A DNA stretch of 64,000 nucleotides from a virus. A model generated the notes under the pieces. It saw only the letters and a program-made list of their open reading frames with translations, had not been told where the DNA came from and ran no database searches. The position numbers and the translations under genes were made by a program. The stretch covers positions 1-64,000 of the IMG/VR virus record IMGVR_UViG_3300013094_000026; one strand, 5' to 3'. The first letter of the stretch is position 1, and every line of letters begins with the position of its first letter. Shown here in pieces: positions 271 through 62,271 of the stretch.

Positions 271-864
271 ATGGTAATAAAAGCATATAAAGGTAACACT
301 AAGCCTATTTACAAAGGAATAGATTATACTGGTAAAAAAATTGCTGGCTGGTTAATTCTAGGTCCAATAGAATGTGTTAAATCAAAAACTGGTAAAACAT
401 ATCATACCAAATGGTTATGTCAGTGTGATTGCGGATCTAAGCCTAAAAAGATAATTAAGGAGAATCTTTTTAGGGGTATTACATCTGGTTGTACGGAATG
501 CACAGGTTCAAGGCATAAGGGAAATAAAAATAATAACTGGAAAGGCTTTGGAGAAGTTTCTGGTTCTATTTTTAATAGAATAAGGTCTGGTGCAAAGGTA
601 AGGAATTTAAATCTATTTGTAAGTCCTGAATTTTTAAATGAATTATGGATCAAATCAAATGGAATTTGTGCCCTATCTGGTATAAAATTAGATTTAAATA
701 GTACAGCAAGTCTTGACAGAATTGATAGTTCAATTGGCTATATTGAAGGAAATGTTCAATGGGTTCATAAAGATATTAATAAGATGAAAAATGATCTTGA
801 TGAACAGTATTTTAAGGATTTATGTAGATTAGTAGCTAATGTTGTTGATATTGGTAAAAATTGA
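271..864 (+). CDS. HNH homing-type endonuclease
   Basis: The 197-residue protein has an N-terminal segment with WLCQCDCG and SGCTEC, resembling the small DNA-recognition/zinc modules seen in phage HNH enzymes. A C-terminal HNH-like core follows: GICALSG, then SLDRIDSSIGYIEGNVQWVH and KDINKMKN. Enzymes of this type nick or cut DNA and spread their own gene. It has its own leaderless promoter. Its last residues (VVDIGKN) copy the C-terminus of the upstream reductase (IVDIGK), which suggests that the unit was inserted at the 3' end of nrdJ. Specific target unknown. Confidence 0.8.
   Translation: MVIKAYKGNTKPIYKGIDYTGKKIAGWLILGPIECVKSKTGKTYHTKWLCQCDCGSKPKKIIKENLFRGITSGCTECTGSRHKGNKNNNWKGFGEVSGSIFNRIRSGAKVRNLNLFVSPEFLNELWIKSNGICALSGIKLDLNSTASLDRIDSSIGYIEGNVQWVHKDINKMKNDLDEQYFKDLCRLVANVVDIGKN
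842..858 (+). repeat. 17-bp imperfect direct repeat, copy 2 (end of HNH gene)
   Basis: This is the partner of the repeat at 214-230, with one mismatch. It lies within the last codons of the HNH gene and just before the terminator that probably once served nrdJ. Confidence 0.7.
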
Positions 865-890
865 TATAATATAATTGCGAGAAAAACGCT

Positions 891-924
891 AGTAAACCCG
901 CCCTTCTCACGGGGCGGGTTTACT
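891..924 (+). terminator. Strong stem-loop terminator
   Basis: AGTAAACCCGCCC pairs without mismatch with GGGCGGGTTTACT around an 8-nt loop, giving a 13-bp stem. Downstream is T-rich but there is no clean U run. The hairpin separates the nrdJ/HNH transcript from the fibre block. Confidence 0.8.
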
Positions 925-937
925 ATGTCTATTTAAT

Positions 938-965
938 TTGTATTTTGCATATTAGATGATACAAT
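938..965 (+). promoter_or_regulatory. Putative promoter of the tail-fibre block
   Basis: TTGTAT at 938-943 and TACAAT at 960-965 are separated by 16 nt, just behind the terminator and 20 nt before the first fibre gene. Confidence 0.45.
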
Positions 966-985
966 TTACCTATAAGTAGGTGACT

Positions 986-1324
986 ATGAAAGAAGCAAAT
1001 TTAACAATTATTCAGGGCGATACACTCGTTCTTACTGTCTTTTATAAAGATAGTGCGGGAAATCCAATTAATATTACTGGATATACTGCAGAATTTCAGG
1101 TAAGAGATGTTCCAGGTGGAAAAGCTCTTTGTGCAACAGTTAATACAACAAATGGAATTGAAATTGATGGAGTAAATGGTAAAGTTACAGTAACTGTTTC
1201 ATCAGATTTAACTAAAAAGTTTATAGTTCCAAAATCTTCATATCAATTACAAGTAAATTCAGGAACCATTAAAACCACATTAGCAACAGGATGGTTTGAA
1301 GTTAGTAGAGGTACAATTCAATGA
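986..1324 (+). CDS. BppU-like small tail/baseplate protein
   Basis: The 112-residue protein begins with a beta-rich pattern ([17 protein letters not shown], then [15 protein letters not shown]) that resembles N-terminal domains of baseplate upper proteins and related tail-fibre anchors. I chose ATG 986; a GTG two codons earlier (980) is possible, and the AGGTG before 986 is close to the start. The stop overlaps the next start as ATGA. It is the first gene of the fibre block, consistent with a link between tail tip and fibres. The role is inferred from pattern and position. Confidence 0.6.
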
Positions 1325-57513: not shown

Positions 57514-58038
57514 ATGGGCGAAGTAGAAGTTGCTGGTCAATTTGACCAGATGAATAAAGTTATTGAAGAGCTACTTAAAGGTAGTACTCCTTCACAGATT
57601 GCCCGTTCTCTTGAGTTAACTCGTGTTCAAGTTGATAACCATATTAAAACTTGGAAAGAATTTGTTCAAGATAATAGTGCTATTAAGGCACGTGCAAAAG
57701 AAGCACTGGCAGGAGCAGATGAGCATTATAGCATGTTGATAAAAGAAGCTTGGCGTACAGTAGAGCAAGCAGATGTTCAAGATGCACTTAATGTTAAAGC
57801 ACAATCTCTTAAGTTAATTGCTGATATTGAAGCTAAACGTATTGATATGTTGAACAAGGCGGGAGTCTTGGAAAATAATGATATGGCAGATCAAATATTA
57901 GAATCAGAAAGAAAACAAGAAGTTCTTGTATCTATTCTTAGAGATGTAACATCATCATGTGATCATTGTAAATGGGAAGTAGCAAAAAGACTTCAAGAAG
58001 TAACTGGACAAGTTGAGGCTGTTGTAATAGATGAATGA
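57514..58038 (+). CDS. terS: Terminase small subunit
   Basis: I use ATG 57514, one base beyond the FmdB-like stop, rather than an upstream in-frame ATG inside that gene. The 174-residue protein has an N-terminal helix-turn-helix (STPSQIARSLELTRVQVDNHIKTWKEF) and a helical oligomerisation region. Position before the large subunit (8-nt overlap) supports the assignment. It should recognise phage DNA for packaging. Confidence 0.75.
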   Translation: MGEVEVAGQFDQMNKVIEELLKGSTPSQIARSLELTRVQVDNHIKTWKEFVQDNSAIKARAKEALAGADEHYSMLIKEAWRTVEQADVQDALNVKAQSLKLIADIEAKRIDMLNKAGVLENNDMADQILESERKQEVLVSILRDVTSSCDHCKWEVAKRLQEVTGQVEAVVIDE

Positions 58039-59872
58039 TTTTAATGTATTTTTAGATGCATTAAGCGGGGATGAGTTTGATGAAACTCCAGCCTCTTTAG
58101 AAGATTTTGTTACAAAGAAAGAGTATCTTGGCTTACCACCATTATCTGAATTACAGTATACAATGATTAAAGCATCAACTCAAATCTATAAACGTGAAAC
58201 ATTACTTAAAATTTATGGTGAAGTTGAAGGCGAAAAAATATTTAAACAAACATGTAATGAAGTTATTCTTCAACTTGGCAAAGGTTCTGGAAAAGACTAT
58301 ACATCTACTATTGCTTGTTCTTATATGGTACATATGCTTCTATGCTTGAAAGATCCAGCAAAGTATTATGGTAAACCACCAGGAGATGCTATTGATATTA
58401 TTAACATTGCTATCAACGCTGTTCAGGCAAACCGAGTTTTCTTTAAAGGCTTTAACCAGCGTATTGAAAAGTCACCTTGGTTCCAAGGTAGATATATTGC
58501 TAAAGCAAATATGGTTGAGTTTGATAAAGGCGTAACAGTTCACTCAGGTCACTCAGAGTCAGAGGCGTGGGAAGGTTATAACGTTATTGCTGTTATTCTT
58601 GATGAAATTTCTGGCTTTGAATTGGAATCAACATCAGGCCATCAAAATGCAAAGACTGCATCATCTATTTATAAAATGTATAAGGGATCTATTACATCTC
58701 GTTTTCCAGATTTTGGAAAACTTGTTTTACTTTCATTCCCACGTTTTAAAAATGACTATATTCAGCAAAGATATAATGAATCAATTGCAGAAAAAGAAGT
58801 TGTATTAAGACATCATAAGTTTAAAGTAGATCCAGATTTGCCTGATGGAACGACTGGTAATGAATTTGAAGTTGAGTGGGAAGAAGATCATATTGTCTCA
58901 TATAAGATGCCAAAAATATTTGCATTAAAAAGACCAACGTGGGAAGTTAATCCCACAAGAAGAATTGAAGATTTTACAGAAGCATTTTATACAGATCCTA
59001 CAGATGCATTAATGCGTTTTGCATGTATGCCACCAGATGCTACAGATGCTTTCTTTAAAAATCGTGCTGTAATTGAAAAAGCATTTAGTAATCATAAATT
59101 AAATGTAGATGAATATGGAAGATTTGATGATACATTTAAACCTGATCCAGATAAAACATATTTTATGCATGTGGACTTGGCTCAAAAGCATGACCATTGT
59201 GCAGTAGCTTTAGCACATGTTGATGGCTGGGTGACAATGAAAATTGGTGAAAATTATAAACAAGCAGCACCTAGAGTTATAGTAGATGCAGTAAGATATT
59301 GGACTCCAACTGCATCAAAATCAGTTGACTTTACAGAAGTAAAAGAATATATTTTATCTATTCGTGAAAGAAATTTCAATCTTAAATTGGTTACATTTGA
59401 CCGTTGGAATTCACATGATATGATGCAACAACTTGGTGTTAATGGTATTAAGACAGAAATTTTGTCTGTTGCTAAAAAACACTATGAGGATATGTCTCTT
59501 ACTTTAACTGAAGAAAGATTACATGGTCCAAAAATTCAATTATTGATTGATGAATTACTTCAATTGCGTATTATTAAAGATAAGGTAGATCATCCAAGAA
59601 AAGGTTCTAAAGACTTATCTGATGCGGTTTGCGGGGCAGTATATAATTCCATAGCATTAACTCCACCAGATAGAGATAGAGAAGTAGAAGTGTATAGTTA
59701 TTCTGGGGTATTTGCAGATGAACTTGCACAATTAAAAAAAGAATCAGATTCAAGAATGAAAAATACTATTAAGTTACCAGAAAAGCGGGTAATGCCCACA
59801 GATTTAAGAGATTTCTTTGATGATGATGATAGTGAATACAAAGATATAGTTGACAATTTCAGACTACTCTAG
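58031..59872 (+). CDS. terL: Terminase large subunit
   Basis: The 613-residue protein has a Walker A LGKGSGKD (82-89; Asp replaces the usual Ser/Thr, a variant seen in actinophage-type terminases), Walker B VILDEISG (D191-E192), and a nuclease domain with MHVDLAQKHD (D382), LVTFDRWNSHDM and GSKDLSDAVCGAVYN. It is the packaging motor and DNA-cutting nuclease. It is far from the portal gene (46 kb). A promoter overlaps its 3' end. Confidence 0.9.
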   Translation: MNDFNVFLDALSGDEFDETPASLEDFVTKKEYLGLPPLSELQYTMIKASTQIYKRETLLKIYGEVEGEKIFKQTCNEVILQLGKGSGKDYTSTIACSYMVHMLLCLKDPAKYYGKPPGDAIDIINIAINAVQANRVFFKGFNQRIEKSPWFQGRYIAKANMVEFDKGVTVHSGHSESEAWEGYNVIAVILDEISGFELESTSGHQNAKTASSIYKMYKGSITSRFPDFGKLVLLSFPRFKNDYIQQRYNESIAEKEVVLRHHKFKVDPDLPDGTTGNEFEVEWEEDHIVSYKMPKIFALKRPTWEVNPTRRIEDFTEAFYTDPTDALMRFACMPPDATDAFFKNRAVIEKAFSNHKLNVDEYGRFDDTFKPDPDKTYFMHVDLAQKHDHCAVALAHVDGWVTMKIGENYKQAAPRVIVDAVRYWTPTASKSVDFTEVKEYILSIRERNFNLKLVTFDRWNSHDMMQQLGVNGIKTEILSVAKKHYEDMSLTLTEERLHGPKIQLLIDELLQLRIIKDKVDHPRKGSKDLSDAVCGAVYNSIALTPPDRDREVEVYSYSGVFADELAQLKKESDSRMKNTIKLPEKRVMPTDLRDFFDDDDSEYKDIVDNFRLL

Positions 59873-60641: not shown

Positions 60642-60715
60642 GGTTCCATAGATCAATTGGTTAGATCACTGCCCTGTCACGGCAGAGGTTACGGGTTCAA
60701 GTCCCGTTGGAATCG
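60642..60715 (+). tRNA. tRNA-Asp (GTC)
   Basis: Acceptor GGTTCCA/TGGAATC (one G-T pair), anticodon stem CTGCC/GGCAG with GTC at 60676-60678, and T arm ACGGG-TTCAAGT-CCCGT. No CCA is encoded. Confidence 0.9.
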
Positions 60716-60718
60716 CAA

Positions 60719-60831
60719 GGGTTACACACCACATCTTAGGATGATTATAGTTACATATATACCCTGTGTGTGTTCACGTTGATGTAGAGATAGGGCAGAC
60801 CATTCTCGCAGGCGGGAATTGTGTGTAACCC
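60719..60831 (+). ncRNA. 113-nt structured RNA of unknown class in the tRNA array
   Basis: GGGTTACACAC (60719-60729) and GTGTGTAACCC (60821-60831) pair perfectly over 11 bp. Inside are three possible hairpins: CATC/GATG (60732-60743), CCCTGT/ATAGGG (60762-60795) and ATTCTCG/CGGGAAT (60802-60819). The shape recalls an expanded cloverleaf, but no anticodon arm or T loop fits a tRNA. It lies 3 nt after tRNA-Asp and 7 nt before tRNA-Ser, so it is probably processed from the same transcript. No ORF is present. Phage T4 also has stable non-tRNA RNAs in its tRNA cluster (species C and D), the nearest known analogy. Confidence 0.6.
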
Positions 60832-60838
60832 CCTTATT

Positions 60839-60931
60839 GGAAAAATGGCAGAGTGGTCTATTGCAGGGGATTGCTAATCCCCCGTAGAAATTATGTTTCT
60901 ACCGTAGGTTCAAATCCTACTTTTTCCGCCA
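60839..60931 (+). tRNA. tRNA-Ser (GCT)
   Basis: Acceptor GGAAAAA/TTTTTCC, anticodon stem GGGGA/TCCCC with GCT at 60873-60875, long variable arm (GTAGAAA...TTTCTAC) and T arm GTAGG-TTCAAAT-CCTAC. CCA is encoded. Class II tRNA. Confidence 0.92.
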
Positions 60932-61037: not shown

Positions 61038-61721
61038 ATGAATAAATTAGATAATTTACCACCTATTTATATAATTAATTTACAAAGAAGATCAGATCGT
61101 CGTTCTCATATTTTGGATAATCTTTTAAAATATGGAATTCAAAGGTATGTTTTTATAAATGCTATTGATTATCAAAAAGATAATCTTGAAAATATGGTTA
61201 ATAATAAAATTTTAATAAAAAATAGTGAACTTGCTTGCACACTTTCACATTTTAAAGCTATAGAGCACTGGCTTAAAACTAGTGATTTTGAATATGCAAT
61301 AATAGCTGAAGACGATTTATGTTTTGATACTGTTGATTATTGGAATTTAACTTGGGAACAATATATAAAAAAAATAGATTTTGACTTTGATATCCTTCAG
61401 TTGGTTATATACAATATGGATAATGATTTTAAAGTGGATCTTCATAAAAGACAAAAAAATGATCAATCAACAGCAGCTTATTTAATTAAAAGAGATCATG
61501 CTGAAAAAATGTTAAATAAATTTATTATAAATAATAAATATAGTTTTCCTGATTATTGTGTTGCAGATCATTTTTTATATAATGAAGGTGAAGTTTATGC
61601 TGCGGGACTTTTTGTAATTGATGAAAGATCAATTAAATCAGATATAAATCCAGAATATGAAGAAAGACAACTTGTTATGAGGAATAAAGTGCTTGACTAT
61701 TGGAAACAAAGTGCTAAATAA
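61038..61721 (+). CDS. GT25-like glycosyltransferase (second copy)
   Basis: The 227-residue protein has the family N-terminus IYIINLQRRSDRRSHI, ELACTLSHFKAIEHWL and AIIAEDDLCF (E91-D92-D93). TATAAT at 61023-61028 precedes ATG 61038 by 9 nt. It is related in type but not closely to the copy at 55552. Likely modifies the same glycan system. Confidence 0.8.
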   Translation: MNKLDNLPPIYIINLQRRSDRRSHILDNLLKYGIQRYVFINAIDYQKDNLENMVNNKILIKNSELACTLSHFKAIEHWLKTSDFEYAIIAEDDLCFDTVDYWNLTWEQYIKKIDFDFDILQLVIYNMDNDFKVDLHKRQKNDQSTAAYLIKRDHAEKMLNKFIINNKYSFPDYCVADHFLYNEGEVYAAGLFVIDERSIKSDINPEYEERQLVMRNKVLDYWKQSAK

Positions 61722-61749: not shown

Positions 61750-62271
61750 ATGACAGATGCCCATGATGTAAATATGACTTTTTCAATTCTGGCACATATT
61801 CCAGAACATGATCCACGAGAAAAAGATCCAAATTATAAATATTTCATCGCAGCTAAAAAGAAAATTAAAAAGCTGGGACTTTGGAAATGTGCTATTAGTG
61901 ATGATCTATGTGGTGGACAAATGGAATTACATCACACACATGTTGAATTTAGTCAATTGCCAAATGCTGATAAAACTAAAGTAGAACAATATTTTGGCTT
62001 ACATTTTACAGATGATGATGAATTTCAACAATGGTTGGAAAGTCCAGGAAATCTAGAAGTATTATGCACAAATCATCATAGAACACATTATGGAATTCAT
62101 ACATTGCCACATGCTCTTTGGGAGTCCCTCCGATTTAGAAAAACGGGTACTTTACCAGCAGCAGAGGTAGTCTCAAATAAACCTAAGAATATTAAGATTA
62201 GTGATATAATTAATACAGGCAATAAACAAGGAGAAAATAATGGCAATAGCACATCAAATAGTGGCTCTTAA
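61750..62271 (+). CDS. HNH endonuclease (phage packaging-neighbourhood type)
   Basis: The 173-residue protein has CAISDDLCGGQMELHHTHVEF and NLEVLCTNHHRTHYGIH, the pattern of an HNH family common in actinophages. TATAAT at 61735-61740 lies 9 nt before the ATG. Its last 32 nt overlap the next gene, and its C-terminus is encoded over that gene's promoter and ribosome site, suggesting that the tail is not conserved. It lies within about 2 kb of the terminase genes and may aid DNA processing or be a homing-type nuclease. Confidence 0.75.
   Translation: MTDAHDVNMTFSILAHIPEHDPREKDPNYKYFIAAKKKIKKLGLWKCAISDDLCGGQMELHHTHVEFSQLPNADKTKVEQYFGLHFTDDDEFQQWLESPGNLEVLCTNHHRTHYGIHTLPHALWESLRFRKTGTLPAAEVVSNKPKNIKISDIINTGNKQGENNGNSTSNSGS
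62202..62210 (+). promoter_or_regulatory. Extended -10 promoter of the last virion block
   Basis: TGATATAAT inside the HNH coding end, 29 nt before ATG 62240, which has AAGGAG at 62228-62233. Confidence 0.55.

Follow-up and report, generated by a model that had tools for sequence, protein, structure and literature searches.

Evidence for an uncatalogued family of small folded RNAs in uncultured relatives of Stanwilliamsviridae phages

Structured RNAs are known to occur among phage transfer RNA (tRNA) genes. The tRNA cluster of phage T4 encodes stable RNAs of unassigned function, and some of the GOLLD and ROOL RNAs, which are likewise structured and have no assigned function, lie near phage tRNAs. 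Here we describe an RNA at positions 60719-60831 of the first 64,000 nucleotides (the window) of virus record IMGVR_UViG_3300013094_000026, which has 96,479 bases in all; the segment belongs to a cluster of five tRNA genes that follows the terminase gene (58031-59872). As a small structured RNA among phage tRNA genes it resembles the T4 RNAs, compared here by description only. We know of no sequence that the two share, nor of T4 RNAs that recur across numerous phage lineages in promoter-swapped or permuted versions. GOLLD and ROOL are ornate RNAs of several hundred nucleotides that form large RNA-only complexes (PMC12286853). In contrast, members of the present family measure 76-143 nucleotides and no Rfam model matches them, in agreement with the first-pass annotation of this DNA, which had set GOLLD and ROOL aside. 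What is new is the RNA class, which lies outside Rfam.

It is strongly supported that 60719-60831 belongs to a family of small folded RNAs that had not been catalogued before and that many uncultured bacterial viruses carry. As judged from sequence, the probability that it is a discrete, stand-alone RNA of a new family is close to nine in ten. The parts of the RNA and the two flanking tRNA genes are as follows.

60719..60831, plus strand: the whole structured RNA, about 113 nucleotides, in the tRNA-Asp/tRNA-Ser interval, matched by covariance model R1
60719..60729, plus strand: 5' strand of the closing stem P1, GGGTTACACAC, read from the sequence; 12 of 12 P1 pairs show changes on both sides among 64 members
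60821..60831, plus strand: 3' strand of P1, GTGTGTAACCC, read from the sequence; same covariation in the 64 members
60735..60743, plus strand: invariant core 1, CUUAGGAUG, kept in nearly all members
60746..60759, plus strand: P2 hairpin, UAUA-GUUACA-UAUA, whose stem co-varies in relatives
60748-60754, plus strand: invariant core 2, UAGUUAC, inside the P2 hairpin
60762..60795, plus strand: variable P3 region, CCCT ... AGGG, equal in position to P3 of the main subgroup; its pairing in the window is weak and uncertain
60802..60819, plus strand: P4 hairpin, AUUCUCG-CAGG-CGGGAAU, read from the sequence; the AUUC/GAAU helix shows both-side changes in relatives
60642..60716, plus strand: tRNA-Asp(GTC), upstream, its 3' end running into P1 (ARAGORN)
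60839..60931, plus strand: tRNA-Ser(GCT), downstream (ARAGORN)

The RNA is thus packed 2-3 nucleotides 3' of tRNA-Asp and 7 nucleotides 5' of tRNA-Ser. No open reading frame (ORF) accounts for the segment, and ARAGORN and the Rfam models, which detect the flanking tRNAs, place no tRNA or transfer-messenger RNA (tmRNA) on it; the earlier statement that it is neither coding nor a tRNA therefore stands, and the perfect 11-base-pair closing stem is present as described. Taken by itself the segment is mildly unusual, with a folding z-score of -1.94 and 4 of 200 shuffles equally good, and the window contains three perfect 11-mer inverted repeats with a loop of 60-139 nucleotides. The single-sequence case for a structured RNA is modest, and the comparison with relatives is decisive.

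Relatives were collected from IMG/VR, where contigs are often partial and certain contigs were counted as more than one locus. A terminase search gave 80 loci, many of which have a related RNA, placed either behind the terminase or inside a tRNA array, and pattern scans with the conserved core extended the collection to at least 136 distinct type I sequences. The final broad scan with the core returned at least 120 rows, with about 10 chance matches estimated; among the 86 distinct matches listed from it, 75 had a stem score of at least 28, a value reached at 0.5% of random positions, and second-scan matches scoring below 28 were excluded from the 136. P1, P2 and the promoters described below all lay outside the fetching queries. 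P1 was absent from both the core pattern and the terminase query and so provides an independent confirmation.

Model R1, built from 29 relatives with the window member excluded, matched the window at 60720-60830 (52.3 bits, E 1.2e-10; the E-values of R1 and R2 are rough). This was its sole match in the window and across the 96-kb record, and exactly one match per record was seen in 22 of 22 RNA-bearing records. The GTCCCC-type subgroup likewise has one real copy in each of eight records. An apparent second copy in record G040 proved to be a tRNA cluster, and R1 matches at L045 5205 and L055 183 fall in coding sequence; these were rejected. A search with the exact stem recovered only the window's own phage, and was narrow because the stem sequence varies between relatives.

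The family was not found in existing catalogues. Rfam 15, scanned at gathering level and at E<=10, gave no family at the RNA in the window or at 19 relative loci, permuted forms included, the matches across those loci being tRNA-type and chance only. BLAST of five members against cultured phages (INPHARED) gave only short chance matches at the RNA, and the first core pattern, run over 257 Gb of bacterial and archaeal genomes, gave two chance matches, both lacking P1. No description of the RNA was found in the literature searched.

The fold is carried by covariation. In all relatives a P1 stem of 11-20 base pairs closes the RNA; its sequence differs and its pairing is kept. In the covariance alignment of 64 members (A3), double changes were observed in 12 of 12 P1 pairs and 99.6% of cells are paired, with a covariation score of 0.566 as against 0.198 for shuffled and at most 0.093 for slid pairings. 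In A4, the alignment of a separate subgroup of 43 members, double changes were observed in 11 of 11 P1 pairs, and one P2 pair had eight. Double changes in P2, P3 and P4 of A3 are fewer than in P1, yet real; the P2 stem reads UGUA/UACA in L054 and AAUA/UAUU in L140 and L161, with others elsewhere. The alignments were fitted to the structure; the raw stems are nevertheless visible by eye. G-U pairs occur throughout P1, which therefore points to an RNA rather than a DNA site. A search of column covariation for extra pairs gave nothing convincing beyond P1-P4. The first-pass annotation had proposed an unclassified, structured and discrete RNA in the tRNA array, and had named covariation of the closing stem in homologues and an Rfam scan as checks; the stem does co-vary, the scan is empty at the site and no tRNA or tmRNA model fits, all of which bear the proposal out.

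An almost invariant set of 17-20 nucleotides, CUUAG(G)-RUG...UAGUUAC, forms the shared core, and P4 of the window corresponds to the GUGCU/GUGCA loop hairpin seen in relatives. Three inner hairpins had been drawn from the window sequence; inner structure does exist, with P2 and P4 backed by comparison, and two of the three are unsupported. The first of them (CAUC/GAUG) consumes core 1, which relatives place in a junction. A one-codon ORF, AUG/GUG-NNN-UAG, is present in the core of most GTCCCC-type, GTACGG-type and permuted members (e.g. L289, L135, L223). A conserved AUG-NNN-UAG minimal ORF was rejected as an ORF, its frame being broken in the window, in the L020 and L061 types and in several subgroups.

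The ends of the RNA are strongly supported, and its 5' end is fixed in one of two settings. Among the 136 type I members, 59 start at most 8 nucleotides after a tRNA, usually 0-2, and an in-register -10 box is missing from all of these. In the 77 without a preceding tRNA, a hexamer agreeing with TATAAT at five or more of six positions was found in 69 (random positions, 11%), and in 48 of the 69 it sits 6-7 nucleotides before P1; several members have a full TTGACA-17/18-TATAAT promoter. Since -10 boxes accompany 69/77 of one group and 0/59 of the other, the start of P1 coincides with either a tRNA end or a transcription start. With a sigma70-type promoter so placed, the predicted transcription start would be the first base of P1. 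Release by processing of the flanking tRNAs, which may operate in the window, fits this promoter placement in relatives lacking an upstream tRNA. Downstream, the RNA is often followed by a tRNA, a U-run or a new promoter. Across the family, tRNA arrays and stand-alone promoters are swapped as sources of one RNA.

The same core in a changed order was found at loci L192, L196, L198, L223, L286 and L291, and at L311-L313. The order there is outer stem, GUGCAG, CUUAGGAUGG, UAGUUACC, outer stem, mostly just upstream of a tRNA, and across six aligned sequences the outer stem is paired in 78 of 78 cells with double changes in five pairs. In L219 and L234 the permutation is a different one, and a TATAAT box together with an intrinsic terminator hairpin implies a separate transcription unit. 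R1 does not detect the permuted forms; their shared core suggests that they belong with the family. Since the core survives with the ends in another helix, the folded junction is likely to be the working part. Few conserved structured RNA families show natural circular permutation. L237 is also listed among the circularly permuted versions of the core, and at L223 a tmRNA-like match (811-1036, minus strand) falls just below the Rfam cut-off, at 45.4 against 47 bits.

We propose that the RNA acts in trans through a host or phage protein early in infection, serving as a decoy or forming the RNA component of a small ribonucleoprotein (RNP), and we give this function a probability of a little under one half. 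It would be made early by the host RNA polymerase, or together with the tRNAs, by one of two interchangeable routes: tRNA-trimming enzymes may cut it out of the tRNA transcript, as in the window, or it may have a sigma70-type promoter of its own, with P1's first base as the start. P1, by joining both ends, should protect them, and the RNA would be stable. The business end would be the junction of CUUAGGRUGG and UAGUUAC, joined in most members by the GUGC-loop hairpin, and this rigid junction could bind a protein. We consider it less likely than not that this new RNA class of a wide group of uncultured Stanwilliamsviridae relatives inhibits or decoys a host protein, such as a defence nuclease that targets tRNAs, and that its expression accompanies or replaces that of the tRNA array. 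Phage small RNAs of known action are few, and an RNA that is single-copy, compact and widespread, with a defined 5' end and a near-invariant core, makes both fold and partner directly testable.

Several points weigh against this proposal. No conserved neighbour gene points to a partner. The RNA is known from sequence, and its expression, its processing by tRNA enzymes, its stability and its protein partner are what we infer. The conservation of the core is partly a matter of selection, relatives having been fetched through the core motif or the terminase. Finally, the GTCCCC subgroup model fails to detect the window member. Cross-hits between the GTCCCC and window groups are weak (E 0.002-0.09) and fall at the right sites; the link between these groups stands on the shared core, P1, start position and these weak cross-hits, not on one strong model.

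A base-pairing regulatory small RNA (sRNA) that represses or activates mRNAs of host or phage would resemble this element in its own promoter, its size and the U-run that follows P1 in 32 of the 77 promoter-group members. However, both ends are locked in P1, a common open seed is absent and permutation shifts the ends while the core is kept. Invariant letters that lie in a junction and tight loops, and that survive permutation, fit a folded binding surface but are not what an antisense seed would be expected to show, and we consider an sRNA unlikely. A self-cleaving ribozyme, or the relic of one, could separate tRNAs, and roughly half of the members adjoin a tRNA. Hatchet and other small self-cleaving ribozymes (PMC4604424) share with it conserved junction letters and a core of several helices, and circular permutation occurs in ribozymes too. 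No ribozyme model of Rfam matched at the window or the 19 relative loci, however, and in many members a promoter of the RNA's own sets the start at P1 and a terminator or the next promoter follows, leaving no 5' substrate and nothing to cut. We regard this explanation as quite unlikely.

What lies downstream bears on a cis-acting leader, either an antiterminator such as put or a riboswitch. In the promoter group the RNA starts the transcript, and in 15 of 77 a gene that has a Shine-Dalgarno site lies no more than 80 nucleotides downstream. Against this, the downstream genes differ widely, a new -10-like box comes right after the RNA in 49 of 77, L219 and L234 have a terminator there, and other members sit in the middle or at the end of tRNA arrays; a leader is very unlikely.

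The window terminase is 64% identical to those of Stanwilliamsviridae phages of Streptomyces, with which the window shares the gene order DnaE, RecA, terminase, tRNAs, HNH. By this measure the RNA-bearing phages are relatives of the Streptomyces Stanwilliamsviridae, their host being taken from phage kinship, and the RNA is present in relatives whose terminases are as little as about 53-56% identical. The RNA lies downstream of the terminase on the same strand, 15-30 nucleotides away in several lineages, which together with its size and paired ends recalls the phi29 packaging RNA (pRNA; about 120 nucleotides, often near packaging genes) and would suit a pRNA-like molecule or a packaging site tied to the terminase. 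Elsewhere the distance reaches 9 kb, and more in the GTCCCC group. A fixed partnership was rejected on these distances, and the linkage is apparently inherited gene order. Rfam gave no pRNA match, and no copy was found in three Streptomyces BE phages or in the terminase cousins L063-L083 (65%; partial records only). We consider a packaging role very unlikely. In L063-L083 a tRNA-Met follows a TTGAC-type promoter.

A Y RNA of a Ro-type RNP, suggested by the paired ends, the tRNA-array setting and the Ro genes of cousin phages, was rejected as scarcely credible, since a TROVE gene was found in 0 of 25 IMG/VR records (the window's and 24 relatives, some partial, most known RNA carriers) and the Rfam YrlA model gave no match at the RNA, its weak matches falling on tRNA genes. 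Two of the three Streptomyces phages have a TROVE gene; in Gilson and Comrade, both cultured, the Ro/TROVE-domain gene lies inside the tRNA array (L184, 18375-19991; L185, 17643-19259), in contrast to its absence from the searched records, which are of freshwater origin.

Beyond tRNA-Tyr, a glycosyltransferase-like ORF (61038-61721) separates the window's tRNA cluster from an HNH endonuclease gene (61750-62271). Relatives in which the RNA is directly followed by the HNH gene do not show this ORF at that place, and in many relatives the HNH gene comes 26-120 nucleotides after the RNA.
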